A stretch of 64,000 bases of DNA from Haloarcula salinisoli (GTDB lineage: Archaea; Halobacteriota; Halobacteria; Halobacteriales; Haloarculaceae), in contig NZ_RKLQ01000005.1 in assembly GCF_019599405.1 (NCBI RefSeq), positions 124,001 through 188,000 of the forward strand. Reading direction: 5' to 3'. The position numbers and the translations under genes are program-made. Shown piece by piece: positions 9,660 through 64,000 of the stretch (positions are counted from its first letter, which is position 1; every line of letters begins with the position of its first letter). The notes beneath the pieces are model-generated. The model made no database searches and was not told where the DNA came from. It was given only the letters and a program-made list of their open reading frames with translations.

Positions 9660-9661
9660 TG

Positions 9662-11186: not shown

Positions 11187-11387
11187 GAAGACAGATTAAT
11201 CATCTGAAGAGGCAATCTCCCTCAGAAATTCCAGGGTTACAGGTACATAGAGAAAGCAGCACAGGAATCCAGACCCAATCCCCCAAACTCTCAAACAATT
11301 TCGCGCCCACAACTCAGACCCCAGAATCAACACTAGCCGCCCGACAAGCCCATTTGTACCGTCAGTCGCGTTCCATCAACGAACCGC

Positions 11388-11575: not shown

Positions 11576-11952
11576 CGGGCGGCCGTCGCGAGTTGCCATG
11601 ATGAACAGACGCTCTCGGGAGGTTGGGTCGCCGTAGTCGGCGGCGTTTAACACCTCCCAGTCGATGCTGTAGCCCAGCGAATGGAGGCTGTTGATCACTG
11701 GTCGAAGGTCTCGCCGTTCCGCGTCGGCTGGCCATCGTCGTCGATAGGTCCCCACGACCGAAATTCTGTGACGTTTTCGACGAGGACGTGTTCTGGGCGG
11801 AGCTTCTGGACCCAGGTGAGGAAGTCCCACGCGGGCATCCGTTTCTGTTCGTCGACGGGCTTCCCACCTCGGGCGGTCGACCAGTGGGTTGCGTAACTGT
11901 TACAAAATTCAATATTTATAAGTATTTGCCAGTAAAAAATAGTAACATCAGA

Positions 11953-12564
11953 ATGCCACGGTCGTTCTCGGTTGGCGAGTTCGCCGATGAACTCGGTGTT
12001 CACGCCCAGACCGTGAAACGCTGGTTTCGTAACGACGACCTCGATTACACTCGCACACCAGGCGGTGAACGGCGGATTCCACATCGGGAACTCCGCCGAC
12101 TTGCAGGCGACACTCGTTCAACAGACCGTGTTGCCCTCTACGGTCGCGTCTCAAGCCACGGCCAGAAAGACAATGGCGACCTCGACCGGCAACTCGACCG
12201 ACTCACGGACTACGCTCACGACCACGGTTGGAGCGTCGAACACACCTACACCGACGTTGGCAGTGGCCTCAACGAAGACCGACGCGGCCTCAACTCCCTC
12301 CTCGATGACGTGCCAGACGCCGACTACGGCCGAGTTCTCGTCACCTACGAAGATAGGCTCACTCGCTTTGACTTCTCGTATCTTGAACGGTATTTCGACT
12401 GCTACGGTATCACCATCACCGTCATCGAAGACGAGACAGACAAATCAGCACAGGAAGACCTCGTTGATGACCTCATCAAGCTCGTCGCCAGCTTCAGCCG
12501 GAAACTCTACGGTATGCGCTCCTCGAAAAACAACAGGTCGTCAACGCCGTCGAGTCTGAGGTGA
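11953..12564 (+). CDS. tnpA: IS607-type serine recombinase TnpA
   Basis: 203 residues. Residues 1-55 form a MerR-like helix-turn-helix (FSVGEFADELGVHAQTVKRW). A resolvase-type catalytic domain follows, with YGRVSSHGQKDNGDLDRQLD containing the nucleophilic Ser, then VTYEDRLTRF and a C-terminal helix. The order DNA-binding domain then catalytic domain is characteristic of IS607 TnpA, which cuts and rejoins DNA at GG sites. The ATG at 11953 follows an AT-rich promoter-like stretch. It ends six bases before tnpB. Confidence 0.92.
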   Translation: MPRSFSVGEFADELGVHAQTVKRWFRNDDLDYTRTPGGERRIPHRELRRLAGDTRSTDRVALYGRVSSHGQKDNGDLDRQLDRLTDYAHDHGWSVEHTYTDVGSGLNEDRRGLNSLLDDVPDADYGRVLVTYEDRLTRFDFSYLERYFDCYGITITVIEDETDKSAQEDLVDDLIKLVASFSRKLYGMRSSKNNRSSTPSSLR

Positions 12565-12570
12565 AACCCG

Positions 12571-43735: not shown

Positions 43736-46700
43736 TTAGGATCGCTTTCGGGCCGCGAGGAGAGCGGCTCCCAGCAGTGCCACCAGCGCGAGTACGATAC
43801 CGAAGCCTGCCCCATCGCCACTGGTCGTCGTGGTTGGGTCCGTCGTAGGCGTCTGCGAGGGAGTGTCACCGCCGGTCGGCCCGGCATCGGTTTCGTTCTC
43901 GACGACGACTGTCGTCGTTACGGTGGCCGTCTGTCCGGCAGCGTTCGTCACGCTGAGTTCGACGGTGTATTCGCCGGCTTCCTCGAACGCCAGCGTCGTC
44001 GTCTCGCCCGACCGTTCTCGACCGTCGATCGACCACTCGTAGCTGGCGATCTCCTCGTCCGATAGTCGTGCCTCACTGACGTTGAGTCTGCGTTCCTCAC
44101 CGACCGCCAGACGAATCGTCTCGTCGTCGAATGCTGGCGATGTACTCCACTCGACTGTCTCCGACAGCATCATGATGGTCACCGTCGCGGTGTCGTCGCC
44201 TCCCTCGCTGTCGCGGACCTCGTAGCTGAACGAATCGGTCCCAGCGAAGCCTGGCTCGGGCGTGTACTCGAACGATCCGTTCTCGGCGAGTGCCAGTGTG
44301 CCGTTGGTGGGACCGCTCTCGACAGTCACCGAGAGCGCGTCGCCGTCGGGGTCGGTGTCGTCGTCGAGCACTCCGCCGTCGGCAGCAACGGTCAGCGTCG
44401 TGTTCTCGACGGCCGTGTACGCGTCGTCGGTCGCGTTCGGCGGGTCATTCGGCTCTGCGCCACCGCCGCCACCGCCACCGCCGCTGCCCGAGGTCCCGTC
44501 GTCGTCATCGGCTTCCTCGACGGAGACCGAGCGCGTCGCGGTGTCGTTAGCCGTTCGAACGGTAATTGTGCCCGAGTCGGCGTCACCCTCGCTAGTTTCC
44601 CACGCCAGCGTAACGTTCGTCTCATTGCCAGCTGCGAGGGTCAGCGACCGGGTATCGACTTCGTCTCCGTTGAACGCTTCGAGCGTGACCGGCTGGCTGT
44701 CGGCGAGCTCACCGACGTTGGTCACGGACGCCGTCACCGAGAGCTTCTCCCCTTCGGTCACGGGCGCATTCGTTCCGGTAATCGTGACGGTGAGATTTGC
44801 CGGTCGGGCCGCTTCGGTCACGGTAATCGTCACCGTGGCGGTGTCGGTCCCACCGCTGCCGTCGCTGACCTGGTAGGTGAACGAGTCCTCACCGGTGAAC
44901 CCATCGTCGGGTGTATACTCGAAGCTCCCGTCGGCATCCAGTGCGACGCGCCCGTTGGACGGCCCAGCGACCGGTGTCGTCGTCACGGTCAACGCGTCGC
45001 CGTCCGGGTCATCGTCGTTCGTCAGGAGGCCACCGGACTCTACGGCGAGTGTCTCGTCGCCGGCTACTGTGTAGCTATCATCGGCGGCTGCCGGTGCCGC
45101 GTTAGCCGCTGGCTGCCACGACAGTACCGGGTAGCCCTCCTCTCGGGTCGCCCACGTGGTCCCGAATTCGAATGCGGTCAGGTTACCGGGCGCGTCCGGC
45201 CCGGTCATCTCGTCGGCGCGTCCCTGGCCGTCACCGGTCTCGAAGCCCTCGTTGTCCTCGACGACCGTCTCGAACGACGAGAATCCGACTGCGGCGGACT
45301 GGTCCGTCGCTCGCTCGTCGAAGTACGATTCGCGGAGGTCGGCGGTGGCCCCGCTGAACGTGCCGGCCATCCCGCCGACGATGCCTCCGACGTTCGTGTT
45401 CCCGGTCACGACACCCGCGGCGTACGACCGTTCGACGACGCTGCCACTGGTTTCGACCGTCCGCACGTCGCCCACGAGGCCGCCCACGTAGGCGTCGCCG
45501 GTCGCGTTGCCGGTGGCGTAGGACTCGTTGACCGTCCCCGCGCTGGACAGGCCCACGAGTCCACCGACCGAGGACGCGTCCGGGCTGCCGACGTCACCGG
45601 TCGCGTACGACTCCGTCACGGTGCCGCCGACGTTGCCGCCGACGAGCCCACCGACGCTCCCGCCCGAACTCCCGACTGTCGCTGAGGCGCTCGAGCGTGC
45701 GACAGTGCCGGCGTTCCGGCCGACGAGGCCGCCGACGTCGTTCTCGCCGGTCACGGTCCCGGTGACACCCACCGACCGTACCCGTCCGCCGCTATTGTTC
45801 CCGACGGCTATACCGACCTGGTTCTGGCCGGTGACGTCGGCGTCGGTCAGCGTGACGTTCCCCACGGTGGCGCCGTCGCCCACAACCCCGAAGAGGCCGG
45901 TGTCGTTCTGTGTGGCTCTCGTAACCGTCAGCCCGGCTATCGCCCGATCTTCGCCGTCGAACGACCCGGTAAACGGCGTGGTGTCGTCACCGACTGGGTC
46001 GAACCCGGCCCCGTCATTCCACGTCTCGGTCGCGCTCGCGTCGATATCGTTCCCGAGCGTGTAGCTCGCGTCGAGGTCCACATTCATCGCCTGGAGCTGC
46101 GTGGCGTTCGTGACCACGTAGGGGTCCTCGGCCGTCCCGGAGCCGAACATCCCCGCGGGACCGGAGCCACTCGATGGCTGCTCGACGGCAACCGTTGCCT
46201 CGTCGCTCGCTGTCGGGCTGGCGACGGTGACGGTCACCGCCGGCGGGTCGTCGGCGGTTGTCGCGTAGGTGAACGTCGTCGTCGTTTCGTCGCCGGCCGG
46301 CACTGACACCGACCGGGACGCTACCTCGGTGCCGTTGGTACCGAGTGTCACCGGTTGCGTGGCAGCGACTGCACCACCGTTTGAGACGTTCGCTCGGACG
46401 GCGATGGTATCGCCGGCAGTCACCGTCACGTTCACGTCCGTAATGTCCACGGCGAAGGCCGGCTCCTCGGCGACCGACAGCGTCACCGTCGCTGTGTCCG
46501 TGTCCGTTCCGTCGCTGACTTCGTAGGTGAACGAGTCGGTGCCGACGAAGCCCTCATCCGGCGTGTACTGGAAGCTCCCGTCGGACTCCAGCGCGAGGCT
46601 CCCGTTCGACGGCCCGGCGACCGGCGTCGTCGTCACAGTCAACGCGTCGCCGTCGGGGTCCGTGTCGTTCGCGAGGACCCCCTCGCTCGCGCCGACGGCG

Positions 46701-49700
46701 AGCGTCCCGTTCTCCACGGTCGTGTAGCTATCGGCCGTCGCCGTCGGAACGCGGTTCACCGACACGTCACGCGTCGCGATGTCGTCGTCGGTCGTGACCC
46801 CGACCGTCACAGTGGGAGCGTCCGACGCGGACGCAGTGTACGTGAACGTCCCCGTCGTGGATTCGCCGTCCAACAGCGTCACCGTCTCGGAGCCGACCTG
46901 CTCGCCGTCGACGGTGAACCCAATCGTCTGTTCCGCGCCGCTCGCCCCGTCGTTGGTGACCTCGTAGTCCACCTGCACCGTCTCACCGGCGGTCACCGTG
47001 TCGTTGGCGTCTGTGATGATCGCATTGAAGTTCGCGCCCGACTGCCCGACGGTCACGGGCGCCGTCTCGTTCGTCCCGGGACTTACCAGGGTCACGTCGC
47101 CGGACTGTGCCGTCTCTGGGGTCCAGGTCAACGTGATGTCCGTCTCGCCGCCGCCCAGCAGCGTCACGTCCGTATTGTCGACCTGTGCCGCATCAATGCC
47201 GAGCAGTTCCAGGCGGTCGGTGGCGGTGAACTCCCCGAGATTCTCGACGCGGACATCGACGGTCAGCGTCTCGCCGGTCAGGACCGGTGCGTTGGTGTCT
47301 GTGATGGTGGTCCTGAATGGTATCGGCAACTCGCCGTCGTACCGCTCGGCAAGCACCGGGTAGCTCTCGGTCAGTGCCCACCCCGTCTCGAAGTCGAATG
47401 CGGTCATATTCGACACGGCGGCAACGTCGGTCATCTCCGCGGTCGTCAGCCCCCTGCCGCCGGCCGAGTCGTCCTGCCCGGTGACGACTGTGTCCCAGTA
47501 GACCCCGGTCACCGTCCCGCTATTGGTCCCGACTGCGCCGCCGGCGTCGCTGTCCCCGATGACGCTCGCCACCGTGTAGGCCTGTTTGACGGTGCCAGTG
47601 TTTTCACCGACGAGGCCGGCCACGGCGCTGTCACCCTCGACGGAGCCGTCGGCGGTCACGTTCGCCACGTAGTCGGTGTTCCGACCGACCGCGCCACCGA
47701 CGGACTCGTTGCCAGTCACCGTCGCCGTGACGGAAGCAACAGCGAGTTGCTGGATGTTTTCTCCCACGACGCCGCCGACCGCAGTGTCGCCGTCGACTGA
47801 AGCGTTGGTCGTCACGTCGATAACCACGCCATCGTTTGCTCCCGCGACGCCGCCGACCGCACTGTCACCATCGACGGTGCCATTGACGTTCACACGGGTC
47901 ACATATTGTCTGTTACTCCCGACGGCGCCCCCGATCGAGCGCGAGCCCGTAACGATCACGCCGCTAGCGCTAGTGTTCTGCAGCTGTTCCCCGTTGAGGA
48001 AGCCCACGACGCCACCGGTCCGGTTCGTGCCGGTGACTGTCGCGTTGTCGACTGAGATATTGGTCAGGGGCTGACCGAAGTATCTGATGGTCGTATCGTA
48101 GCTGCCGACGGTGCCGCCGGTCCGGTTCGCCCCGGTGACCGTCGTATCGGTGACCGAGATGTTCCCGACGGTGCCGCCGGTCATGTTGCCGACGACGCCG
48201 CCGGTCCGATTGCCACCAGTCACGACCACGCTGTCGAGGGTTACGTTCGTAACGTCGCCACCGATGGCACGGCCGACGAGGCCGCCGGTCCCGTCCGCGC
48301 CGGTGACCGTCGCGTCGGCGAGCGTCAGATTATGGACCGCCCCGCCGTCGAGGACACCGAAGAACCCGACTGAGTCGTTCCCCGGCCGGTCGAGGGTCAG
48401 GTTCGAGACGGTGTGGTCCGCCCCGTCAAACGAGCCGGTGAACGCGACGGTGTCGTTCCCGAGCGGGTCGAAGCCGTCGCCGGTGTTCAGCGGCCGGCTG
48501 CTCGCGTCGATGTCGTCGGTGAGCCGGTAGGCGGCGCTGCGGTTGCGCCCGACGGCGGAGAGGTCGTACGGGTTCGACACCTCGAACGGTGCGCTCGCAG
48601 TCCCGTCTTCGTCGGGCACCTGGGCGACGAGACGTGGATACCCCGTCTCGTTTGCCAGCCAGTCGTCGTAAAACTCCAGTCCCGCCATCGTCACCGTCGC
48701 GTTCGGCCCCGTCATCTCGCCGGTCGTCAGGTTCGTCGTCCCGTCGACGTTCGCGGCGGCCTGCCCGGCCGTCTCCTCGTTCCAGTAGGTGTCTCGAACC
48801 ACTCCGTTCCACCCGTCGCTGCCAGAGTAAAAGACGGTTACTCCACCCACGACCGGCCCGACAGGAGTTTGTCCGTCGTCACCTGCTGCCCCGCTGACAG
48901 TCCCAGTCACGTACGTGTCGTTTATCCTCGAGGTGCCTTCGAGGTTTGCGACGACGCCCCCTCCTACGGTATCTGTGGAATTGCGATTTATATCGGCTCC
49001 CGACGCCACGTCGGTAATTACGCCGTCTCCGCGGTGCTCGCCAACGACCCCACCGACCAGTCCGTCGAACTCTCCAAAGCTGTATCCGAGGTTCGTCACC
49101 TCACCGTCGACCGTTGCCTCTCGAATCACACCGTCGTTCCTGGAAGCCAATCCACCGGCTAGGAAGGGGGATGTCACGTCAGCGTCGACCGTTACATTTC
49201 GAATTACACCCCTGTTGTCGTCGACCAGACCGCCAGCACCGATAATGGTTAATCGCTCGGGAGTAGACCTGAGGGTTACAGTGGCGTTCGCTGAAACGTT
49301 CTGTATGACACCGGACCGGGAATTGAGACCTGCTACGCCGCCGACATCTCTGAAGACCAATTCATAACCGCCCACTTCGAATGTCCCTTCGTTCGGTACG
49401 ACCCGTCCCTCGACGTTGCTGGCAGCGATAGTGCCATGATTTTCCCGTGCGATGATACCCGCGTTCGTGCGAAGGTCGCCTGGCAGTGTCTGATCCGCAG
49501 GTGGTGTGACGTTCGCATCCGTAACGTGAACGTTCCGGACGACACCCGGTTCACCGATAGCGGCGAACAGCCCGTAGTCGGTGGACAGGTTCGATATCGT
49601 GTGTCCGTCCCCGTCGAACGTACCGTTGAAGCGCACTGGCTCGGACTCACGGAAGTATTTACCGACCGGAACGAACCCGCGATACAAAATGTCGTTCCGA

Positions 49701-50506
49701 CTCCTCGTGAGGACCGCTCGCCACTGGGCGGTCCGCGAGGCGTCGATGTCCGCGGTGAGCGTGTAGTTCGCGTCCAGGCTGTCGTTCATCGCCTGTAGCT
49801 CCCGCACGGTCGAAATCTCGTAGGGGTCGTCGGCCGACCCGTCACCGGGCAGGTCCGCGGGCGTCGGCCGGTCGAATGCGATGTCCCGGGTCGTGTCGCC
49901 CGAGACGCTCACCGTCGGCGTCACCGTGGCGTTCGTCCCGCCGACGAACTCGTGATAGACGGTCAGGTCCACCGAGGATTCCGTGACCGTCACCGCGTAC
50001 GTCCCGTCGGCGTCGGTGGTCGTCGCCGTGTCGGTGCCGTTGACGACGACGGTGGCGTTCTCGACGCCCGCCCCGAAGTCGGTAACCGTCCCCGAGAGCG
50101 TCGCCGGGGTGCCCGTCCCCGACAGCGACACGTCCGAGGTGGTGCCGTCGCCGTAGGATACGGTCAGCGTCGCGCTGTCGTCGGCCGTATCGCCCGGCGA
50201 GTACTCGACGGTCGCGGTCAGGCTATCGCCCGCCGCGAGCGTGGCGCCGCTGGCACCCGAGGTGACGGTGTAGTCGTCCCCGTCGGCCCCGGCCACCTCG
50301 ACGCCGGTCACCTCGATTTCGCTCCCGCCGTCGTTCGTGACCGTCACGTCCTGGCTTGCCGTGTTTCCGACGCTCTGTTGCCCGAAATCGACGGCCGACG
50401 GCGAGATGCTCGCGTTGCCGGCCGCCTGGGCCGCCGCGGGCGACACTCCGACGGTGGCAATCGAGAAGACCATCAGGACCGACAGCACGACTGCACGGAG
50501 TTTCAC
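43736..50506 (-). CDS. Giant cell-surface protein with GLUG, cadherin-like, CARDB and PKD domains
   Basis: About 2256 residues. A Sec signal (VVLSVLMVFSIATVGVSPAAAQA) opens it; GTG 50506 is my start, though GTGs further up are possible. Then an anchor-D-like Ig domain (SPSAVDFGQQSVGNTASQDV), a carboxypeptidase-regulatory-like domain, three blocks of GLUG repeats (GGLVGRNAGTV, GGVVGENTGTV), CARDB-like domains, and three cadherin-like domains with NDTDPDGDALTV and FQYTPDEGFVGTDSFTY. Near the end are a PKD domain (YEWSIDGRER) and a Thr-rich spacer before a C-terminal anchor (GFGIVLALVALLGAALLAARKR), a PGF-CTERM-like signal processed by archaeosortase. Likely an adhesin. Confidence 0.88.
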   Translation of the reverse strand: MKLRAVVLSVLMVFSIATVGVSPAAAQAAGNASISPSAVDFGQQSVGNTASQDVTVTNDGGSEIEVTGVEVAGADGDDYTVTSGASGATLAAGDSLTATVEYSPGDTADDSATLTVSYGDGTTSDVSLSGTGTPATLSGTVTDFGAGVENATVVVNGTDTATTTDADGTYAVTVTESSVDLTVYHEFVGGTNATVTPTVSVSGDTTRDIAFDRPTPADLPGDGSADDPYEISTVRELQAMNDSLDANYTLTADIDASRTAQWRAVLTRSRNDILYRGFVPVGKYFRESEPVRFNGTFDGDGHTISNLSTDYGLFAAIGEPGVVRNVHVTDANVTPPADQTLPGDLRTNAGIIARENHGTIAASNVEGRVVPNEGTFEVGGYELVFRDVGGVAGLNSRSGVIQNVSANATVTLRSTPERLTIIGAGGLVDDNRGVIRNVTVDADVTSPFLAGGLASRNDGVIREATVDGEVTNLGYSFGEFDGLVGGVVGEHRGDGVITDVASGADINRNSTDTVGGGVVANLEGTSRINDTYVTGTVSGAAGDDGQTPVGPVVGGVTVFYSGSDGWNGVVRDTYWNEETAGQAAANVDGTTNLTTGEMTGPNATVTMAGLEFYDDWLANETGYPRLVAQVPDEDGTASAPFEVSNPYDLSAVGRNRSAAYRLTDDIDASSRPLNTGDGFDPLGNDTVAFTGSFDGADHTVSNLTLDRPGNDSVGFFGVLDGGAVHNLTLADATVTGADGTGGLVGRAIGGDVTNVTLDSVVVTGGNRTGGVVGNMTGGTVGNISVTDTTVTGANRTGGTVGSYDTTIRYFGQPLTNISVDNATVTGTNRTGGVVGFLNGEQLQNTSASGVIVTGSRSIGGAVGSNRQYVTRVNVNGTVDGDSAVGGVAGANDGVVIDVTTNASVDGDTAVGGVVGENIQQLAVASVTATVTGNESVGGAVGRNTDYVANVTADGSVEGDSAVAGLVGENTGTVKQAYTVASVIGDSDAGGAVGTNSGTVTGVYWDTVVTGQDDSAGGRGLTTAEMTDVAAVSNMTAFDFETGWALTESYPVLAERYDGELPIPFRTTITDTNAPVLTGETLTVDVRVENLGEFTATDRLELLGIDAAQVDNTDVTLLGGGETDITLTWTPETAQSGDVTLVSPGTNETAPVTVGQSGANFNAIITDANDTVTAGETVQVDYEVTNDGASGAEQTIGFTVDGEQVGSETVTLLDGESTTGTFTYTASASDAPTVTVGVTTDDDIATRDVSVNRVPTATADSYTTVENGTLAVGASEGVLANDTDPDGDALTVTTTPVAGPSNGSLALESDGSFQYTPDEGFVGTDSFTYEVSDGTDTDTATVTLSVAEEPAFAVDITDVNVTVTAGDTIAVRANVSNGGAVAATQPVTLGTNGTEVASRSVSVPAGDETTTTFTYATTADDPPAVTVTVASPTASDEATVAVEQPSSGSGPAGMFGSGTAEDPYVVTNATQLQAMNVDLDASYTLGNDIDASATETWNDGAGFDPVGDDTTPFTGSFDGEDRAIAGLTVTRATQNDTGLFGVVGDGATVGNVTLTDADVTGQNQVGIAVGNNSGGRVRSVGVTGTVTGENDVGGLVGRNAGTVARSSASATVGSSGGSVGGLVGGNVGGTVTESYATGDVGSPDASSVGGLVGLSSAGTVNESYATGNATGDAYVGGLVGDVRTVETSGSVVERSYAAGVVTGNTNVGGIVGGMAGTFSGATADLRESYFDERATDQSAAVGFSSFETVVEDNEGFETGDGQGRADEMTGPDAPGNLTAFEFGTTWATREEGYPVLSWQPAANAAPAAADDSYTVAGDETLAVESGGLLTNDDDPDGDALTVTTTPVAGPSNGRVALDADGSFEYTPDDGFTGEDSFTYQVSDGSGGTDTATVTITVTEAARPANLTVTITGTNAPVTEGEKLSVTASVTNVGELADSQPVTLEAFNGDEVDTRSLTLAAGNETNVTLAWETSEGDADSGTITVRTANDTATRSVSVEEADDDDGTSGSGGGGGGGGAEPNDPPNATDDAYTAVENTTLTVAADGGVLDDDTDPDGDALSVTVESGPTNGTLALAENGSFEYTPEPGFAGTDSFSYEVRDSEGGDDTATVTIMMLSETVEWSTSPAFDDETIRLAVGEERRLNVSEARLSDEEIASYEWSIDGRERSGETTTLAFEEAGEYTVELSVTNAAGQTATVTTTVVVENETDAGPTGGDTPSQTPTTDPTTTTSGDGAGFGIVLALVALLGAALLAARKRS

Positions 50507-50729
50507 CGCGACCACCCCACCGTAGCCGTCCGCGTCAGGACGTATTCTGGTGCCACCCACCACCACGAGCGCACCCGAGTCGACAGAGCGTCGGTCGTCC
50601 CCGGAGCAATCTGCGTCGCTGTTCCCCCATCCCCTGGCGCTACTGCGCTGCTCATTCGCCAGAAGGTGAGAGGTGGACCACAGAGTAACCGGTCCCTACA
50701 CGCGTAGGGACGACACGACCTGTCAGGGA

Positions 50730-53565: not shown

Positions 53566-56500
53566 ATGACCGAGAACACTGCCTCCGCTCCCCAATCAAT
53601 ACCACGACCTGAGTCGGAGGTGGTATCGGACTATATCGAAGAAGGGGAATCCCACATCCATATCTCAGGTGGGCCGGGAATCGGTAAGACGACCACCCTC
53701 CAGCAGATTACAGCAGATATCGGCACGGACTACGAGACTGACATCCGTGAGATACGACCAAACCATAGCTGTGAGGACTTTGTACGGGAAGTATGCCACT
53801 CTCTGTTCGACCATCTCCCCGGCGATAAAACAGAGGAAGGCAAGCGGGTTACCGGCATCAGTATCAGCGCGGTAGGAGGTCTCTCATGGGATGATGAAGG
53901 CCCAGACGCAACCAGAGCTCATTTCGGATACAGGGACGCCCTCATTGAGCTGTCTGAACGATTCACCGAAGATCAACCACTCCTGATATGTGTCGATGAT
54001 ATCCACAAGCTAGGTGACAACGACAAAGCAATCAGGGGCGTAATAGAGGAAACATGCGATACCCTCCCATCGAATGTCACGCTCCTCACCGCGGGCCGTC
54101 TCCCGTTCCGTGACTTGGAAACCTTCGTCTCACTCGATACCTTTACTGAGGAACAAACAGCGACACTGCTCCGTCAAGCGTTTCCAGAGATAGAGGACGA
54201 ACAAATAGAGATCGTTCATGAGGAGGTCGACGGCCATCCACTCTATCTCGGTTTGCTCATCGAATCGAACGATGACGCTGCAGCGCTCAAACTCCCAGAC
54301 GACGAAGTCTACACGGCCATCGAAGAACGGTATCTCCAGTTCCTCTCCCCCGACGAACGCCGCATCCTCCGAGCGACCGCTCCCCTGCGTGAACTCCACG
54401 AAGCAGTCTGTACATACGTTCTGCCCGACTCCTACGACCTAGATCGGGTCGCTGTTGCTGAAATTCTAGAATCACTAAGCACACGTACTGTTGTCCAACT
54501 GATCGGACGCACCCATACAGGTCTTGCTACGTTCAAAGTTCACGATGTCTTCCGGGAGTTCCTTGCAGAACGGTGGGGCCGTACTGAGGAAACCCAACAA
54601 CGAGCGTTCCAGTACTACGCGGAAACCAGCATTGAACTGGCCGACGAAAACACAGAACTTGAAACAGAGGTCCACTACATCACCTACTGCCTTGAATTCC
54701 TCTCCGACGCCGTCATCCGGGATCAGACCGAGACCGTGTCCGACCTGATTGCGCACGTAGTGGCGGACGACGGCTTCAGCTTCTATCCGGCCTCCCTGCT
54801 CGTCACCGCGTTCAAAACCCGCGATGCGGAACAAATCCCGGATTCCATCATTGAAGCGGTCTTCGCAGCCATCGATGCCCGGAACGAGATTGCGAACGAC
54901 TTCTACGACGCACGACTCAACCGCACCTGGGCAGAGCGACAGCTCGAACAGGGCGCATTCGAAACCCCATCAAACATCTTGCTCACCTATCTCGCCAGGA
55001 TAACCGATAACGATCCATCTTTCGTGCAGCGAACCATTGACGCGACACGGCCGACCGATGAACGGACGAAATGGTCTCTGATCTCACTCGGTACCGATCT
55101 TCCTGCATCCGGTGCGAGAACGGTAGGCGAGAAAGCAATACCATGGATCCAGGAGACCGATGCATACCATGACCTCGCCTACCGTAGCCTGGAACTACAT
55201 GAGCATCTCTGTAGTCTCAATGAGTACGATACGGCCCTTGATCTCCTAGATGTGATTCTCACCCCACGACAGGTCGACGGCAACGACCAATTAGACGGAA
55301 ATCAGGGGATGACGAGATACAGTCTTATCCAAGCACTCGAAGAGACGTTTCCCGACCTCTGTGAGGAACGACCCGACGACCTTCTTGAGGTGCTTTACAC
55401 GAATCTTGAAGACGCACTCCGCATCGAAGGGGTGGACGGTGTGGAATACGAGGTACTCGTCAAGCAGAACCCGGTTACAGAACTCGACTACGTCGACGAG
55501 AACCGCGGGAAGCTGAAACACATCCTCCTAGAGTACTTTATCCGTGCCGTCACGACATGGATCGACCAGGAGCCAACTGCCGCCGACAGACGCGAGTTCA
55601 TTGAGGAGTTGCTCAGCGGCCCTGTCATGTTCCAGCGCGTCGGCTTCACACTGCTCGCGGCGCACCCCGAACACCAAGTCGACCTCATCGAGACGGCGCT
55701 ACTGGATGAAGAGAACTACCGGGACCGCCCCGCCACATTCGAGTTTTACCACCTCCTTGCAACAGCATTCGATCATCTAGAGGAAGACGTCCAAGCGCAG
55801 GTCTGCGAGAATATCAATAATGGCCCATATATCGATGTAGAGGAGAAGGCTGAACAGCTCGCTCAACGACGAGATGAATCCGCACAGTCTCTCGAACAAA
55901 GACTACAGGAAACATGGCGTCGAGACCGGTTCTGTCTCATTCAGGACACGTTGCCCGAACCCTATGTAGCACAGCTGGAAGGACTGCTGGAGAAGCATGG
56001 CGAACCAGATCGGGTTCCCTCTGAGCCACACCAGTCCGCTGTAACTGGTGGCTGGGGAGCCGTGAATGAACGAGGACCAGAGGAGACAGAGGAGCTACGG
56101 GACAGCCCGGCCGAAGAGGTGCTCACCACCGCAGTCGAATGGGAACCCCCGGAAACAGAACGATGGGAACCCGATGAAGACGGAAAGCTTGAGGAGTGGA
56201 CCCACGTCGGGTTTTCTCGGCAAATCCGGGATCTAATCGAAGAGCAACCGGAACGGTATGCCCGCGAAATATCGATTCTAAAAGACGCCAATCCCAGGTA
56301 TGCCGAGGCGGCATTTCGCGCATTCCGGGAACTGCTCGACGAGGGACAAACATTCCCTTGGAGCTCGATCATCGCGCTTGGTACGGTCATCGCCGACGAC
56401 CCAGTTGCATGGAGTACCGGCAGCCGTACCCGCCTTGCCATGCTCCTCAACAAGGGTATGGCCGTTGATGAAACACCGTTCCCCGAGGCTCACGCGGACG

Positions 56501-57621
56501 AGGTCCGTGACATCTTGTTGGTGCTAGTTACTGATACCGATCCTGATCAGGAACAAGACCAACCCGCGGAGGGCGTGGCCGGCCACGGAGACCCAGTCCG
56601 AGTCGCGATCAACTCCGTGCGCCCGATGGCACTCAACGCGCTCATCACCTACGCGTGGTGGGACACCGACCAAGGCGACAATGATCTGGAGCCCGTGCTT
56701 CGTGACGCTATCGAGAAACGTATCACAGAGGATCAGTCGCTTGCCGTCCGCACAGTGATCGGGCGGCGGTTCGGAACACTCTGGGAACTAGACCGAAACT
56801 TGGTAGAACAACACTTGGATACAATCTTCCCTCGTGGAGAGTCGATCACAGAACAGCGCCGATTCATCGCCGCATGGAACTCCTTCACCAGCCATAACGT
56901 CATGTGGGGATACGACGTCCTTCGCTCCTACTACAGCCACGCCATAGAACTGCTCGACTATGGTGAAGACGATGCGTATGAGATCAATGTTGGATCCACT
57001 GCTACCCACGTCGTGTCGTCCTACTTGTTCGGGGAGGACTCGCTTTCCGATGATGAGAGCCTTATCGCACGGTATTACCGGGTTCTATCTCCTGAAGAAG
57101 CAACGGAGGTTGCTAGGACGCTTGCAAACGCGATTGGAAAGCCCGAGGTAGAGGAGCAGTGGGACTCTATCAGGACACTCTGGGACTGGCGGTTAGATCA
57201 GTTAGTCAACGCCGAGGAGACAGAACAACGGGATCATGCGGACGAGATGCGTCGGTTCTTAGACTGTGTCCGTGAATCCTCGGCAACCGATATTGCGCAA
57301 GAACATGATCGTGTACGCCGATCCCTTTCCCATGTTTCCACATGGGATCCGCACTGGCGTCGAATAGAGGAATGGATCGCGGGTCAGTCAAATACATATC
57401 CGGAGATTTCTATGGAATTGTATGGTGTCCTGGTTGAAGCGGCAGTACAGGGGGACTGGTCCTCCGCGGCTCGAACTAGTCAAGAATCCCACCGAAAACA
57501 GATCTATGAGCATGCGGCCGACGCCAGCGAAGAGGCCTTACAATCCGCTCGCAGTATAGCGAATCATTTTGCGGCCGAACGTTGTGAGATGGATCGTGAA
57601 TTTCTGAACGAGACCCTGTAG
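53566..57621 (+). CDS. STAND-type NTPase, candidate immune sensor
   Basis: 1351 residues. P-loop near the N-terminus: GGPGIGKTT at 35-43, Walker B LLICVDDIH at 139-147, then the sensor-like LTAGRLPF. After a winged-helix region (around 260-340, with LSPDERRILRATAPL) the remaining 1000 residues are helical repeats, probably a ligand-sensing solenoid. No N-terminal effector is fused: the NTPase begins at about residue 12, so an effector must be separate or at the C-terminus. STAND NTPases such as Avs proteins detect viral proteins; the family here is not one I can name. A gene on the other strand with a nuclease motif follows. Confidence 0.8.
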   Translation: MTENTASAPQSIPRPESEVVSDYIEEGESHIHISGGPGIGKTTTLQQITADIGTDYETDIREIRPNHSCEDFVREVCHSLFDHLPGDKTEEGKRVTGISISAVGGLSWDDEGPDATRAHFGYRDALIELSERFTEDQPLLICVDDIHKLGDNDKAIRGVIEETCDTLPSNVTLLTAGRLPFRDLETFVSLDTFTEEQTATLLRQAFPEIEDEQIEIVHEEVDGHPLYLGLLIESNDDAAALKLPDDEVYTAIEERYLQFLSPDERRILRATAPLRELHEAVCTYVLPDSYDLDRVAVAEILESLSTRTVVQLIGRTHTGLATFKVHDVFREFLAERWGRTEETQQRAFQYYAETSIELADENTELETEVHYITYCLEFLSDAVIRDQTETVSDLIAHVVADDGFSFYPASLLVTAFKTRDAEQIPDSIIEAVFAAIDARNEIANDFYDARLNRTWAERQLEQGAFETPSNILLTYLARITDNDPSFVQRTIDATRPTDERTKWSLISLGTDLPASGARTVGEKAIPWIQETDAYHDLAYRSLELHEHLCSLNEYDTALDLLDVILTPRQVDGNDQLDGNQGMTRYSLIQALEETFPDLCEERPDDLLEVLYTNLEDALRIEGVDGVEYEVLVKQNPVTELDYVDENRGKLKHILLEYFIRAVTTWIDQEPTAADRREFIEELLSGPVMFQRVGFTLLAAHPEHQVDLIETALLDEENYRDRPATFEFYHLLATAFDHLEEDVQAQVCENINNGPYIDVEEKAEQLAQRRDESAQSLEQRLQETWRRDRFCLIQDTLPEPYVAQLEGLLEKHGEPDRVPSEPHQSAVTGGWGAVNERGPEETEELRDSPAEEVLTTAVEWEPPETERWEPDEDGKLEEWTHVGFSRQIRDLIEEQPERYAREISILKDANPRYAEAAFRAFRELLDEGQTFPWSSIIALGTVIADDPVAWSTGSRTRLAMLLNKGMAVDETPFPEAHADEVRDILLVLVTDTDPDQEQDQPAEGVAGHGDPVRVAINSVRPMALNALITYAWWDTDQGDNDLEPVLRDAIEKRITEDQSLAVRTVIGRRFGTLWELDRNLVEQHLDTIFPRGESITEQRRFIAAWNSFTSHNVMWGYDVLRSYYSHAIELLDYGEDDAYEINVGSTATHVVSSYLFGEDSLSDDESLIARYYRVLSPEEATEVARTLANAIGKPEVEEQWDSIRTLWDWRLDQLVNAEETEQRDHADEMRRFLDCVRESSATDIAQEHDRVRRSLSHVSTWDPHWRRIEEWIAGQSNTYPEISMELYGVLVEAAVQGDWSSAARTSQESHRKQIYEHAADASEEALQSARSIANHFAAERCEMDREFLNETL

Positions 57622-58028: not shown

Positions 58029-60218
58029 TTAGAAATATCGGTATCTATCTTCAGGCATATAATCAGAATCGTCGATTGTACGTCTTATTTTAGCAATATA
58101 TTTCTCCTCGTTTTCAGTTAAATCTTCACAATCTTCGGAGAATTGGCTTTCATCGATCATCGACTGAATGTGCGAAAGGATTTCCCCGTTTGCCTTAGAG
58201 TTGCTCGAGATGATATTGGTGTTTTCAGAGAAAATGTCGTATAAATTGGAGATGGCCTCTACGCTGATAAAGTGGAATGAGAAATCCGTATCTCTCTCAA
58301 TCCGCTCACGAGCATCCTTATTTAGGCTTCCGGACTCTGTATTTGAAAAGAGGAGTTCTTTTGAGACGACGAAGACCATCTGGTCGCTTTCTGTAAATAC
58401 ACTACTGCCAGAATCTTCCAAATCTTGTTTTGATTTTGTCAGTTGCGTCTGAGGGATGCTCTTGCTCTGCTTAGAGTCAACAAGATAATGACTGCCATTT
58501 AATTTTAATCTTCCATCTGCCTCGTTTTTCCCACCTCCAGGAAGGTAATCCCGAAATAGGTATCTCAGTACCACATTTACGTGATCCTCTATATCATATC
58601 CAGCCTGCTGTTTGCTGTCATGGGATTCGCGGAATTGCTCAGGTTCCGAATAATAATCCTGTAGTATCTTTACCGATCTGCGTGCTTCCTTCTCAACAAG
58701 CATTTCTTGTTGGAATCTGAGTTTTCTCCGGGTAGCTCTGACAATATATCGAACTACATCAGTATGCGATTCAGAAATTAGAATCCGGTGATAATTAACT
58801 TGAGTGAGGATAATATTGTATATTTTCTCAAATTTATCTGGGCGCGCTCTGAACGGAATAATAACCCTATAAAATCTTCTATGACTATCCTCAGCGTCAT
58901 CAGAATATGACTTCACGGTGAGTTGTATCCGGCTCTCTTCTGGCTCCTCAATATCTGCTATCCGATGCTGTCTCCCACCAATTTCAATGTCCTCCCCAGT
59001 TGCGTCACTCAAAACGCTATGTATCTCCTTCATCAGCGATTCTTTGTTCAACGGAATATCCTCCTCTTTAGAATCCGGATTTATAATGCCTTTATCGACT
59101 AACTTGTTCATTCCTGTATCCGAATCTATATTTTCCAAAGAATTATAGTACTTATCCCTGTAATTCTTGTGGGTTGTCAGTAGCTTATTAAAATAGTACG
59201 ATGGTGGTTTGTGGTATGGTTCATAAACATCAATGCCATACCTCTCAAGTATATCTTCGATAGTGTCTCTTAGTTCTTGTTCAGTTTCAGATATTTCAAG
59301 TGAAATCTTGATAAACTCTCGATTATCGCTCGTTCGCGAGAAAGTCTGGAAATTCAGCTCGAATTCAACGTCTTCTTCTTCAGTCACATATACAAATTTA
59401 CACTTGTCTACCGCCAGTAAATCCTGTTTATCTTGTATTAGAAGATCGTAATCAACGAATTCTTGTACCTCAATAACCCCTTCTCCGGAGGAGACAGAAA
59501 GGGAAATATTCGAGTTTCCTCCTGAGATACGAATATCTCGCAGAAAAACATCGTGAGACTTCAGTTTTTGTACGAAGAGTGGATCAATGTCCAAGTCATC
59601 ATATGAGTCGGGCTCCTCGTCTTGAAGAACAATATTGTCGTAGTCGTGCGTCGCATAAACAAATCCGTTTCTCTGTGTCTTATTTCCTGAAAGCCTTATT
59701 TCGTCTTCCGCCTCGTTTATTTCCAGTAGTAATGGTGGATAGTACTCTTCTTCAGTCGGTCGGAGGGGTTCAACATACTCTCTTGAACTCTTTTCCCCGA
59801 CATAGATTATCCGCGGGTCAGAATCATTACTGTTTAGTACAATATTATCTTCTTTGTCGACCTCGGATAGAAAATCATCAATAGCTGTACCTTCGTCCAG
59901 CTTCCTTATGTCATTCACTCGGAATTCTTTATCAAATCTTGCATCAAGTAATTCTCTCACAAATTCCTCAAATTCAACTTCAGAAAACTCCGAGAATGAA
60001 ACGTCGTATGCGTCCGAGATTACGTCAGCAACACTTTCCCAAAAAACATCGTCTGTTTTATCTGTTGAGTCATATTGCTGTTGCAGTTCCCTTACTGTCG
60101 TACCATGGCTTTTCAACGCATTCCTGGCTGATCGGAAGATAGTAGCACTTTTTCTATTAAAAAGCAGAGGTAGAATCCTTTCTTTTAAAAACGTCTTCTC
60201 AAGGTGATCTCCTCTCAT
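58029..60218 (-). CDS. Hypothetical protein with PD-(D/E)XK-like nuclease motif, AT-rich
   Basis: 729 residues, beginning MRGDHLEKTFLKERILPL. The first 550 residues are mixed alpha/beta with no named domain. Near the C-terminus, GGGKNEADGRLKLNG then YLVDSKQSK gives Glu566-x-Asp568 and Asp581-Ser-Lys583, the order of a PD-(D/E)XK nuclease. The gene is much richer in A and T than its neighbours, so it was probably acquired recently. Lying tail-to-tail with the STAND gene and near further nuclease genes, it is a candidate defence effector. Confidence 0.6.
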   Translation of the reverse strand: MRGDHLEKTFLKERILPLLFNRKSATIFRSARNALKSHGTTVRELQQQYDSTDKTDDVFWESVADVISDAYDVSFSEFSEVEFEEFVRELLDARFDKEFRVNDIRKLDEGTAIDDFLSEVDKEDNIVLNSNDSDPRIIYVGEKSSREYVEPLRPTEEEYYPPLLLEINEAEDEIRLSGNKTQRNGFVYATHDYDNIVLQDEEPDSYDDLDIDPLFVQKLKSHDVFLRDIRISGGNSNISLSVSSGEGVIEVQEFVDYDLLIQDKQDLLAVDKCKFVYVTEEEDVEFELNFQTFSRTSDNREFIKISLEISETEQELRDTIEDILERYGIDVYEPYHKPPSYYFNKLLTTHKNYRDKYYNSLENIDSDTGMNKLVDKGIINPDSKEEDIPLNKESLMKEIHSVLSDATGEDIEIGGRQHRIADIEEPEESRIQLTVKSYSDDAEDSHRRFYRVIIPFRARPDKFEKIYNIILTQVNYHRILISESHTDVVRYIVRATRRKLRFQQEMLVEKEARRSVKILQDYYSEPEQFRESHDSKQQAGYDIEDHVNVVLRYLFRDYLPGGGKNEADGRLKLNGSHYLVDSKQSKSIPQTQLTKSKQDLEDSGSSVFTESDQMVFVVSKELLFSNTESGSLNKDARERIERDTDFSFHFISVEAISNLYDIFSENTNIISSNSKANGEILSHIQSMIDESQFSEDCEDLTENEEKYIAKIRRTIDDSDYMPEDRYRYF

Positions 60219-60564: not shown

Positions 60565-60903
60565 TCAGTCTCGTGTTTCAACGCGATACAGCCGCCCCTG
60601 GTTCGGTAGACTCCCATTCAGGGCCGCAATCGCCTGCTGCCACGCCTCAACGCTAGCGAACCCGCTTAGTTGTTGATATGGCGCCAGCGCACTCGCCTCA
60701 GTCGGGTCAACCACCCCGATCTCCTCGACGGTGACGTCACCCTCTTTCGTGCCCAGTCGGGATTTGCGCCACCACGTCTCCCCGGTGGTCCGGGCTGATT
60801 TCCGGAAGGTCACCACTTCACCATGTTCACGTAGTTGGCTGCGTGCAGTGTCATTAGCGAAGATAATCGGGCCGACTGTCCCACCAGGTGATGATTGAGG
60901 CAT
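60565..60903 (-). CDS. ASCH/PUA-like small protein
   Basis: 112 residues (MPQSSPGGTVGPIIFANDTA). The order GEVVTFRKSARTTGETWWRK, DVTVEEIGVVDP, SGFASVEAWQQAIAALNG and LYRVE is that of ASCH/PUA-like folds, which bind RNA or modified bases. ASCH proteins often accompany mobile elements. The match is by pattern only. Confidence 0.5.
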   Translation of the reverse strand: MPQSSPGGTVGPIIFANDTARSQLREHGEVVTFRKSARTTGETWWRKSRLGTKEGDVTVEEIGVVDPTEASALAPYQQLSGFASVEAWQQAIAALNGSLPNQGRLYRVETRD

Positions 60904-60950
60904 CGGTCTCTGTATGGCGTTTTGACACCCCTCTCTCTAGAATCTTCTGT

Positions 60951-61769
60951 TTAATCCCAACGAGAGAGGGCGCCCTGTCCCTGAGGTGTCACACCCGCAT
61001 CGAGCATATCCTCGTCTGAGAAGCGAAGGACACTGATGATGATATACGCCTCTCGTTCGTGATTGAGATTCCCGACGAAAAAGTAGTGATTCATATTGTC
61101 GTCGTTGAATCCCAGCGCGTCAATAACACCATTGACATCGTCATGCTTGTCCCAATAGCGATAAACACCCCACTCAATTGTATGCTGGTCGTGATACGTT
61201 TTTGCAGCGCAGCCTTCACAGCGGTATTTGATATAGAGATCTTGTGGGTAGTCCGATTTCCCCTTTCGCTCGTTCATTTCGAGGTCCATTTGAACAGTGC
61301 TGTCCGGGTTCTCGTCGATATAGACATCCATAATCTCGGCCGGTTCAACCAGTCCGAGACTTACTCGTTGCTCGTTCAGTCGAATCGTGCAGTCGCCAGC
61401 TAACTGGTCAACCAGCTGAATCTGCTCTGATTTTGAAACCGTGTCGACGTGTCTGATTTTCTTGTGTAGGTCTCCCCAGTCTTCTTTCGAGCCAGCGATT
61501 TTGTAACTCTCGTCTCTATTGTCTTGTGCTGGCTCCTCTACTGGCACCGAAACGACGTTCCACCGCTTGCAATTGTCCATCCACAGTTGCGTGGGATACA
61601 AGCGAATGTAGCCATGGGTGTCGGAGTAGCCGCCCAGACACACTGTGTGCCGACCGTCACGAATTGGTTCTGGCGCTGCCCGGCCGAGAATAATCAAATC
61701 ACGAATCCTGTCAACCTCTTGTGACACGGGTGTTCCGATATAGAACTCATCACTGTATATAAAACTCAT
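60951..61769 (-). CDS. Hypothetical protein with zinc-type Cys pair
   Basis: 272 residues (MSFIYSDEFYIGTPVSQEV). The last third contains YIKYRCEGCAAKTYHDQHTIEW, a CxxC followed by a His region that could bind zinc, and the end ISVLRFSDEDM. The opening ILGRAAPEPIRDGRHTVCLGG looks like a beta domain. I have no family name. It lies between the ASCH-like and HNH genes on one strand, so all three may be one operon. Confidence 0.65.
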   Translation of the reverse strand: MSFIYSDEFYIGTPVSQEVDRIRDLIILGRAAPEPIRDGRHTVCLGGYSDTHGYIRLYPTQLWMDNCKRWNVVSVPVEEPAQDNRDESYKIAGSKEDWGDLHKKIRHVDTVSKSEQIQLVDQLAGDCTIRLNEQRVSLGLVEPAEIMDVYIDENPDSTVQMDLEMNERKGKSDYPQDLYIKYRCEGCAAKTYHDQHTIEWGVYRYWDKHDDVNGVIDALGFNDDNMNHYFFVGNLNHEREAYIIISVLRFSDEDMLDAGVTPQGQGALSRWD

Positions 61770-61819
61770 GGTGGTTGACAGAGGGGGTCGGCGCCAGCGA
61801 TTCCGAAAGCGACAGACGG

Positions 61820-62263
61820 TTATTGAAACTCAGTCAAATCGACCTGCGCTCCACCAAGGTCAAAATCATGGTCCAAGAACTCTTTCGACTCATGGGCTGA
61901 GACTGTCTTTGTGTTCAGAATTTCGGGGCCGATATCGTCTAACCGTTCGTTGAGCCGTTCTCGTTCTTGTTCGGTAAGCAGCAGGTCCGCTTGCGTCTCA
62001 ATCTGAAGTTTTCTGAGTTGCCCCTCGATTGTCTTTGCTTCCATCTCAGCATGACACGACCGACAGAGTGTGACAAGATTTACCGGCAGATGTGCATCAA
62101 GCCCTTCGGGAACTTTTGTGTCTGGCACAAGGTGGTGCACACTCAACCGTTCATCTCCTTCTGGTTGCTCGCATCGCTGGCAGCGGCCAGCATCCCGATT
62201 CCGGACTGCTAAGGCGATTTGCTCAAAACGATCTCCTCTATCTTGGCCGTTGTGATTTGGCAT
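61820..62263 (-). CDS. HNH endonuclease
   Basis: 147 residues from ATG 62263 (MPNHNGQDRGDRFEQIALA). The HNH motif is complete: CQRCEQPEG, LSVHHLVP, NLVTLCRSCH. A helical C-terminus follows. An ATG at 62356 would add 31 residues. It is divergent from the PD-(D/E)XK-like gene. HNH nucleases in such settings serve restriction or homing. Confidence 0.8.
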   Translation of the reverse strand: MPNHNGQDRGDRFEQIALAVRNRDAGRCQRCEQPEGDERLSVHHLVPDTKVPEGLDAHLPVNLVTLCRSCHAEMEAKTIEGQLRKLQIETQADLLLTEQERERLNERLDDIGPEILNTKTVSAHESKEFLDHDFDLGGAQVDLTEFQ

Positions 62264-62372
62264 TGTAATAAACAGTGTCTGGTTACGGACTTGAAGTTGT
62301 TCCACGAGGGAGGTTTCTACGGTATGGGATGTAGCACCACTATTTTCACCACTCATCGCACAATACCGGTCC

Positions 62373-63548
62373 GTGAACAAATCTAGCATCGAGCACCAAT
62401 TAGCGGACATTCGGCGACAACTAAGCGAAACCGAATCGCTGCCTCTCCCAACGTTGGAGATTATCGGGCAGTCACAGCAGGAGCGTTACTGGCAGTCATT
62501 GCTCGTGTACTTTCTTGACCCCGACAGCCCCCATGGGTTCGGGTCGGATGTCCTAACAGCATTCTTGGAGGCGATTTCGTCTCATCCAAACATAGCATTC
62601 GATACGCCTGTGCACGACGCGACACGGGTCACCATCCAATCGGAAGTACCCACAGGGAGCGGTCCTGTTGATTTGTTACTAGCACTCGATGACGAGTGGT
62701 TCCTCTGTATCGAACTCAAAGTCGCCTCGCCGGAGACAGGCGACCAGACGGTTCGCTACGCATCGGCGCCAACCATTGGTGACATCGTGGTGAGTGAGCA
62801 TGCTGGTACGGCCGAGTATGTGTATCTCGCACCTGAAACCGCTCAAGCACCTTCCTCCGAGGAGTTCGTCGATGTCTCTTGGCGACACGTCGTCGATCAG
62901 CTTGAGGACGTACTCCACGACGGACAGGGGCAGTATCCAGCGAAGAGTAGCGCACAACTCGCCGATTACCTCGATACGATCAAACGAACACTGAACATGA
63001 CTAACTTAGACGGCATCTCCACGGAGACGGCATTGTACACCGAACACTTTGAACTGATTGACCAGCTCACAGAGGCCTATGAAGCTGACAAACAACGACT
63101 CTTCCAGGCACTTGAGGAGGCGTTTTTCGCTGCGACGGATGTTGACCCAGCAGACTGGACGGTCAACAACCGCGGGACAAACTATATCAATTTTTACAAA
63201 AACGCTTGGCAGAACTTGGATACAGGTACGTCTATCGAGTACGAACCACACGTACACCTGAAGCGCGACCAGCCACGGATTTGGCTCCGACTCGACATTG
63301 AGCACGGTAATAAACAGACTATCCGTGAGGAGTTTCGTGCGTTGCTGAGCGACGAGGAGCTGGCAACACTGGAAGCGAATGGGTGGGACATCGTCGATGG
63401 TACCTATGCTTATTTCGCCAAGTCAGTGCCTATCGATTTCGAGTCTCCAAACGAGTCGGTTCAACGGGCCACGCAGGAACTGCACCAACTCGGTACTGTC
63501 GTTGAGCCACACATTGACGAGGTCGCGGCGGCTCACCGGCACGAGTGA
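62373..63548 (+). CDS. PD-(D/E)XK nuclease superfamily protein
   Basis: 391 residues from a GTG at 62373. The core is Glu91 (SEVPTGSGPVD), Asp100 and Glu114-Leu-Lys116 (FLCIELKVASPE), followed by TGDQTVRY. It is of the PDDEXK_4 type, whose members are often defence proteins. Two short helical domains follow; KNAWQNLDTG and IWLRLDIEHGNKQTIREEF lie in the C-terminal domain. The start is close to the divergent HNH gene, and both could share a promoter region. Confidence 0.75.
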   Translation: MNKSSIEHQLADIRRQLSETESLPLPTLEIIGQSQQERYWQSLLVYFLDPDSPHGFGSDVLTAFLEAISSHPNIAFDTPVHDATRVTIQSEVPTGSGPVDLLLALDDEWFLCIELKVASPETGDQTVRYASAPTIGDIVVSEHAGTAEYVYLAPETAQAPSSEEFVDVSWRHVVDQLEDVLHDGQGQYPAKSSAQLADYLDTIKRTLNMTNLDGISTETALYTEHFELIDQLTEAYEADKQRLFQALEEAFFAATDVDPADWTVNNRGTNYINFYKNAWQNLDTGTSIEYEPHVHLKRDQPRIWLRLDIEHGNKQTIREEFRALLSDEELATLEANGWDIVDGTYAYFAKSVPIDFESPNESVQRATQELHQLGTVVEPHIDEVAAAHRHE

Positions 63549-63795
63549 GCTTCCACTTCGGGTTACTCAACAAGGCTACTGAGGCCCGGCCTATTGAGGT
63601 ATCACCCAAATCATAGAATAATAATTGCAGAGAATAACCGGAATTATAAAAACATCAAAGCGCAGTGTGGCGTTCCAATAAGCACATATAATGCAAAATT
63701 ACTTACCAAAAAGTTAAGTTTACTATTTGTTTACACTCAGATAACGCCCTGATTATGAATGCCATCAGCAAAGAACCTCTCACGTTCACGAGACC
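63549..63795. other. AT-rich promoter region
   Basis: 247 AT-rich bases upstream of the 63796 gene, including TTTACTATTTGTTTACAC. No gene seen. Confidence 0.4.
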
Positions 63796-63936
63796 ATGCC
63801 CATGATTCGAGTTAAAGACTGGACAAAAGAACAGCTCGAAGACATCAAAGATGAAGAAGACCACACTTCCCTCGATTCAGTGGTCAAATCACTTCTCAAA
63901 GAACGCCAACCTGGGTCTAATTCTGCCGACGAATGA
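63796..63936 (+). CDS. Small antitoxin-like protein
   Basis: 46 residues from ATG 63796, or 44 from ATG 63802. MIRVKDWTKEQLEDIKDEED then LDSVVKSLLKER is the pattern of small VapB/ribbon-helix-helix antitoxins. Its stop overlaps the next start (AATGA), so it is coupled to the downstream gene. Confidence 0.6.
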   Translation: MPMIRVKDWTKEQLEDIKDEEDHTSLDSVVKSLLKERQPGSNSADE

Positions 63937-64000
63937 GTGACACTACCCCCACCACGACAGAGGATCATAGCCTTCCCAGTATTTTCGACAGCTGTGACCC
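63933..64000 (+). CDS. Start of a large gene resembling DUF499 ATPases (partial)
   Basis: Only 22 residues are in the window. MSDTTPTTTEDHSLPSIFDS ends with CDP. The string LPSIFDSCDP resembles the opening of haloarchaeal DUF499 ATPases, which occur with DUF1156 DNA methylases in defence loci. The evidence is thin. Confidence 0.4.
   Translation, partial: MSDTTPTTTEDHSLPSIFDSCD

Follow-up and report, generated by a model that had tools for sequence, protein, structure and literature searches.

The window analysed here is a 64,000-nucleotide stretch of Haloarcula salinisoli (bases 124001-188000 of a 212,318-base contig). At its right edge begins an operon that codes for a DUF499 ATPase, a DUF7680 protein, a DUF1156 methylase and a helicase. 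The analysis was extended rightward on the same contig up to the contig end. Coordinates marked L002 refer to the contig piece right of the window; adding 60999 converts them to the scale of the window. The operon and the gene behind it are, with E values of the profile matches in brackets:

63802-63936, plus strand: antitoxin-like open reading frame (ORF) of 44 amino acids, its stop codon overlapping the ATG of the DUF499 gene (ATGA coupling)
63933 onwards, with the first 68 bases in the window (L002 2934-6230), plus strand: DUF499 ATPase (HmaC) of 1098 amino acids (Pfam DUF499 3.9e-36; PADLOC HmaC 2e-89)
L002 6227-6844, plus strand: DUF7680 protein (Pfam DUF7680, PF24728, 3.1e-37)
L002 about 6852-9707 (inferred start), plus strand: DUF1156 methylase (Pfam DUF1156 1e-5; PADLOC HmaB 6.9e-57)
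L002 9707-13345, plus strand: HKD-SNF2 helicase (Pfam Helicase_C 6.4e-19; PADLOC HmaA 3.7e-52; NCBIfam phospholipD_antiphage 5.6e-91, below its cut-off)
L002 13415-14221, plus strand: serine recombinase, after the operon (Pfam Resolvase 2.3e-22)

The first-pass annotation of the window had described the edge gene as a probable DUF499 ATPase with an antitoxin-like gene coupled to its start, and had suggested a rightward extension in search of more DUF499 sequence, a DUF1156 methylase and a helicase. The coupled 44-residue ORF is indeed present, the profile matches bear out the ATPase, and the extension yielded a full-length DUF499 gene, the methylase and the helicase as predicted.

The four core genes abut, with none intervening, and their motifs are intact. 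The ATPase carries GGGKT at position 103 and LLDE at 225, and the methylase has DPTAGRG and DPPY. The helicase combines GLGKT (286) and DEAH (417) with an N-terminal phospholipase-D (HKD) motif HxK...GSxN at residue 125. This HKD motif is found in 46 of 46 haloarchaeal helicases. Other profiles (BrxH, DrmD, PLD_Helicase and PbeA) outscore HmaA on the helicase. Of the 48 other DUF7680 loci, 5 have a relative of the 44-residue ORF (75-80% identity) ahead of DUF499, and so has L097; we propose that this ORF may code for a small repressor which autoregulates the operon.

We surveyed a sample of 292 Halobacteria genomes and found DUF7680 by its Pfam model in 47 of them, at 49 loci. Leaving aside our own locus, we fetched the other 48 with their flanks. 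Without exception, DUF7680 sits between an upstream DUF499 and a downstream methylase on the same strand. The helicase follows the methylase in 45 loci, while the remaining three run into contig ends. Nearly all strong DUF499 matches (48 of 50 with an E value below 1e-20) fall in DUF7680 loci. One of the other two (G263) is cut by a contig end, and the second (G162:C2) is followed by a TFIIB-like gene, as judged by eye. This latter locus (L098), an ATPase with neither DUF7680 nor a methylase behind it, is possibly an orphan relic.

Outside the Halobacteria survey, DUF7680 was found at 79 loci from named genomes and in plasmid records. The loci are mostly cyanobacterial, with others from Chloroflexi, a Desulforamulus and a metagenome-assembled genome of Acidimicrobiales. 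The plasmids belong to Pseudanabaena, Allocoleopsis, Sinorhizobium, Aminobacter and Rhodococcus; the annotated ones have the same gene order, and in the records examined DUF7680 is annotated as hypothetical protein. A DUF499 gene ends within 1.5 kb upstream of DUF7680 in 69 of the 79 loci; among the 10 without one, 4 had room for it. Downstream, 47 of the 79 have a methylase that begins within 2.5 kb; in the remainder it is often preceded by other, inserted genes. Such extra genes between DUF7680 and the methylase are frequent in the cyanobacterial loci (L107-L185); two annotated plasmids have a PemK/MazF-RHH pair and a PIN-domain gene there.

DUF7680 is a fixed fourth core component of this operon, which appears to be new. 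The literature searched, which did not extend to subscription papers or to the supplement of PMC12839542, contained no paper on DUF7680 and none on DUF499 with haloarchaea, and DUF3780, the family discussed next, was met in PMC12839542 only. An unnamed Pfam family would thereby gain a place as fourth core part of an archaeal and bacterial defence system.

The slot between ATPase and methylase is held by DUF3780 in most DUF3780 plasmids examined. According to PMC12839542, DUF3780 consists of four strands and five helices and has no reported homologue. When 120 DUF7680 sequences were compared with 44 of DUF3780 (two of the 30 viral loci described below being left out), the two families aligned collinearly over their full length of 142 columns with a score of 27.4. 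None of 500 column shuffles equalled this; the highest control score was 25.2 and the longest control alignment had 63 columns. AlphaFold2 models of DUF7680 (predicted local distance difference test, pLDDT, 85.2) and DUF3780 (pLDDT 82.6) both show the element order E-E-E-H-E-H-H-H-H, in agreement with the published description: two strands followed by a third, then a long helix, a short strand and four helices of similar lengths. An insertion follows strand two in the DUF7680 model, and the likeness is one of element order, judged without superposition of coordinates. With an alpha+beta fold, a four-stranded sheet, five helices and the slot between DUF499 and DUF1156, DUF7680 has the features of a DUF3780 superfamily. 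Alignment and models together indicate that DUF7680 is a distant homologue of DUF3780, which would join it to a family for which that paper reports none.

DUF3780 itself was found in 5 of 392 genomes of the phylum, all five outside Halobacteria. Relatives also occur on 30 IMG/VR contigs (L197-L226), so that this type of defence may be present on viral or provirus-like elements. Ten of these 30 loci were left out of alignment A5.

DUF499-centred systems have been united as BREX-related (BR) systems of three types, and linked to bacteriophage exclusion (BREX) (PMC12839542). Type 1 has three genes, a helicase with an active C-terminal PD-(D/E)XK domain and often a HEPN domain on DUF499; Type 2 combines a helicase that bears an N-terminal HKD nuclease with a stand-alone DUF3780; Type 3 includes PglZ and a STAND protein that is inactive (iSTAND). 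The operon differs from Type 1 by its fourth gene, by the N-terminal HKD domain of its helicase and by the lack of any HEPN or PD-(D/E)XK Pfam match on ATPase or helicase. It differs from Type 3 in that no PglZ or iSTAND Pfam match occurs among the operon proteins, whose core genes abut. The logic of ATPase plus methylase is shared with BREX (BrxC, PglX/BrxX, PglZ, BrxL), but neither PglZ nor BrxL is found among the operon genes. As in Hma (PADLOC; PMC8565338), the genes form one operon, and ATPase, methylase and helicase match HmaC, HmaB and HmaA. Unlike Hma, there is a fixed fourth protein and a HKD nuclease on the helicase, and the order is ATPase, DUF7680, methylase, helicase; in two plasmid loci that have DUF499 but no DUF7680, a helicase (or a gene named ATPase) comes first, then the methylase, and DUF499 last.

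Another close known system is the Type 2 BR system, with the same gene order, a HKD-SNF2 helicase and a small protein of like fold in the same slot. The operon might simply be of Type 2, with a small protein that has diverged: DUF7680 would then be a renamed DUF3780 and nothing would be distinct. The collinear alignment of the two families would fit this as well. Yet the DUF7680 protein matches only PF24728 and not the DUF3780 model, and the NCBIfam equivalogs of the DUF3780 anti-phage system score far below their cut-offs (198.7 of 1200, 124.7 of 1000 and 306.2 of 1100 bits), while HmaC and HmaB are the nearer matches for ATPase and methylase. In a quick ATPase tree of 51 rows, all 12 DUF3780-linked rows form one clade with a support of 100 in the Shimodaira-Hasegawa-like approximate likelihood ratio test (SH-aLRT), and none of the 34 DUF7680-linked rows falls inside it. 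Those 34, archaeal and bacterial, form a clade of their own (SH-aLRT 92), and four Type-1-like rows form another (100). The tree has no bootstrap, Type 3 systems are absent from it, and L199 and L225, being without usable ATPase, are not included. We consider a drifted Type 2 system unlikely.

We consider it likely, instead, that the operon is a restriction-modification-like defence operon which represents a separate lineage of the DUF499-centred (Hma / BR) systems, and we propose for it a methylase-guided marking and cutting. As its ATPases form a separate clade, we regard it as a variant beside Types 1 and 2 rather than as a new kind of system. Several results count against so close a tie to DUF3780 or so clear a separation. 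HMMER gave no cross-match between DUF7680 and DUF3780 at E values up to 10, so that identity of the two families at this level was rejected, and a profile-profile comparison with shallow sets gave no match either. When 71 mostly bacterial DUF7680 sequences (67 of the 79 loci and four plasmid proteins, with 12 fragments or haloarchaeal copies left out) were set against 16 of DUF3780, the top-scoring alignment ran collinearly for 90 columns, but 4 of 400 column shuffles reached its score. Foldseek found nothing significant for the DUF7680 model in PDB (best E value 0.18) or BFVD (0.018), with query-normalised TM-scores of at most 0.24 among the matches listed. The support of 92 for the DUF7680 clade is below the mark of 95 and came with long-branch warnings.

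When related operons are compared, the methylase does not follow the other three genes. Between our own system and L045, identity is 91% for the ATPase, 88% for DUF7680 and 90% for the helicase, but 98% for the methylase. For L045 and L049 the corresponding figures are 98%, 99% and 99%, with a methylase identity of 54%. Likewise, identity between the system of Haloarcula pelagica and our own is 94% for the ATPase, 96% for DUF7680 and 89% for the helicase but 53% for the methylase; the H. pelagica methylase is 93% identical to that of L049. In nucleotide windows, identity breaks at the start and the end of the methylase gene; in our own operon the shared tract extends about 600 bases into the helicase gene.

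We compared the 46 complete loci (49 DUF7680 loci minus three that lack a component), which make 1,035 pairs. Among these, 29 pairs have an identity of at least 95% in each of the other three proteins; the methylases of 20 of the 29 pairs are at most 75% identical (12 of 17 with three short methylase ORFs set aside). The reverse pattern was found in five pairs. Pairwise identities correlate at 0.97 between ATPase and helicase, and at 0.80-0.84 between the methylase and the others. In many pairs the ends of the methylase are conserved and the differences lie in the middle, where the catalytic core and the presumed target-recognition insert are found. The comparisons show that the methylase gene is exchanged independently of the other three. 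This, too, appears to be new: the terms swap and phase variation are absent from the parts of PMC12839542 consulted (its supplement, which possibly types DUF7680 systems, was outside the search).

A published methylome offers a candidate site for one allele. In Haloarcula marismortui, TCGACGG is methylated to N4-methylcytosine (m4C), and this was assigned to a methylase on a 155-kb plasmid (PMC6606915). The plasmid (NC_006394, 155,300 bases) carries a close copy of the DUF499-DUF7680 operon. Its DUF1156 gene spans the start of the record, where the annotation table lists no genes; just two other genes, of 251 and 195 amino acids, are named methyltransferase. On contig C6 of G154, taken as the same strain, the DUF1156 gene is the single N6/N4 methylase match (21 bits, below the Pfam cut-off). 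TCGACGG is therefore probably the site of the H. marismortui DUF1156 allele. This link between the plasmid copy and the methylome seems to be new as well.

For the operon as a whole, the following course of events is conceivable. The methylase would read a short asymmetric site and mark the host copies. The ATPase would assemble on DNA with the methylase, and together with DUF7680, as bridge or reader, would couple it to the HKD-helicase. At an unmarked site the SNF2 motor would move and the HKD nuclease domain would cut, and the 44-residue ORF would repress the operon. If different methylases mark different sites, a nuclease with a fixed site of its own would be lethal after each exchange of the methylase. 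On the simplest reading, therefore, both arms, marking and cutting, rely on the methylase as their recognition subunit. Mod is the recognition subunit in Type III systems, and PglX presumably is in BREX. If the methylase had this role, the operon would resemble Type III restriction-modification (Mod/Res) in its logic, with a DUF499 ATPase and DUF7680 in addition; no homology to Mod or Res is claimed. As for DUF7680, it may take the role that was proposed, as a hypothesis, for DUF3780, that of a reader of modified DNA (PMC12839542). With this operon the archaeon probably marks the DNA of its own cell and degrades viral DNA that lacks the mark.

The exchanges suggest that it is the methylase which determines the sites to be marked and cut, and that such systems change their target by natural methylase swaps. 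In its strongest form, which we regard as an evenly balanced proposition, DUF499-DUF7680 systems would be plug-in restriction machines. The methylase would be a swappable specificity cartridge for marking and cutting, while ATPase, DUF7680 and helicase-nuclease would form a nearly unchanged chassis, and the H. marismortui allele would read TCGACGG and make m4C. Such swaps make the choice of target in BREX-related systems testable, as one chassis paired with different methylases is expected to differ in the sites that it restricts. Two further points count against the reading given above as likely, a defence operon in which the methylase guides marking and cutting. There is only one allele with a published motif, and the assignment of that motif to the DUF1156 gene is our own. 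The DPPY motif (motif IV) is usual for adenine methylases, and the report of m4C is at odds with its presence in all 46 methylases and with their adenine-methylase labels.

The methylase differences could also reflect relaxed or decaying methylases, with a helicase-nuclease that has no sequence specificity or that reads DNA ends or replication intermediates. Three of the 46 methylase ORFs are short (741-887 amino acids) and some of these may be broken, and cutting at specific sites is, in this analysis, a predicted property of DUF499 systems. But the exchanged methylases are mostly of full length and all retain motif IV, the replacement is sharp at the gene ends and brings in other full-length alleles, and a plasmid methylase of this type fits a strong methylome motif. 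We consider this reading quite improbable. Least credible of all is a chance pile-up of genes on a plasmid-like contig, with the DUF499 operon serving plasmid housekeeping instead of defence: close relatives on plasmids and the recombinase after the operon would suit it, but the spread is patchy (47 of 292 genomes), systems with 97-99% identical proteins occur in different genomes, the neighbours are candidate defence genes, and for a relative of the helicase component an antiphage role has been shown experimentally (PMC12839542).

Left of the operon lie four genes:

60565-60903, minus strand: small protein of 112 amino acids, partner of the next gene, called as an ORF (a relative in Natronococcus sp. 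AD-5 is 68% identical)
60951-61769, minus strand: PDC-M19B-like protein of 272 amino acids with a C-x2-C pair (CEGC) and a conserved RWNVV...RDESxK stretch (PADLOC PDC-M19B 1e-9)
61820-62410, minus strand: HNH endonuclease of 196 amino acids as called (Pfam HNH 2.7e-8; partial match to NCBIfam IscB, 4.8e-8, HNH part only)
62373-63548, plus strand, divergent from the HNH gene: stand-alone PD-(D/E)XK nuclease of 391 amino acids, PDC-S26-like (Pfam PDDEXK_4 6.4e-12; PADLOC PDC-S26 3.1e-28)

All genes named in the first-pass annotation are present at the positions it gave, but its label ASCH-like for the 112-residue protein is a motif resemblance without profile support: Pfam gave no ASCH match at E values up to 5, and its sole match was A1_Propeptide at 0.26. 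The ORF itself is real, because the relative in Natronococcus sp. AD-5 also adjoins an M19B partner, so that the gene pair recurs there. The HNH and PD-(D/E)XK ORFs, as called, overlap head-to-head by 38 bases, and therefore the HNH protein probably starts further in.

Relatives of PDC-M19B were found in 4 of 292 Halobacteria genomes, including our own, and in 14 plasmid records; none was found on viral contigs. In two distant haloarchaea (L086 and L087, about 8000-13400), M19B is found with M19A (a ParB-DUF488 fusion), a partial methylase-like protein and a full N4/N6 methylase, which suggests a modification-linked defence. Here, by contrast, no M19A stands beside M19B: none was detected in the window, in L002 or in L003, and the single DUF488 match of the genome sits on contig C1. 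A complete PDC-M19 system was therefore rejected for the window. In G269 (L088, 9543-10235), broken remnants of the M19B and 112-residue genes lie side by side, near an alcohol-dehydrogenase-like fragment and with a transposase-like gene about 1.5 kb off (gene names by eye).

Membership of the leftward trio in the DUF499 system was also considered and rejected, as tblastn across 51 loci (48 with DUF7680 and three with M19B) showed no conserved company with the operon, except for one weak HNH match in L069. The HNH and PD-(D/E)XK genes are predicted to be accessory nucleases of the island, outside the DUF499 system, and the small and the M19B-like protein are likewise putative accessory proteins. 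Auxiliary nucleases do occur beside BR systems (PMC12839542), and the HNH and PDC-S26 genes resemble these, although they do not regularly accompany the operon. With the HNH, PDC-M19B and PDC-S26 genes and a Dsr1-like NTPase on the left and the DUF499 operon on the right, the defence island postulated from the window is supported.

The Dsr1-like protein (53566-57621, plus strand) is a STAND/AAA NTPase of 1351 amino acids with an AAA_16-like N-terminus, and its C-terminal residues 492-1222 match PADLOC Dsr1 (4.1e-25). A protein of 729 amino acids (58029-60218, minus strand) has no convincing family match; by eye, a C-terminal ExD...DxK-like pattern is suggestive of a PD-(D/E)XK nuclease. Further to the left (43736-50566, minus strand), a predicted surface protein of 2276 amino acids shows cadherin-like repeats and an anchor-like C-terminal end, again by eye.

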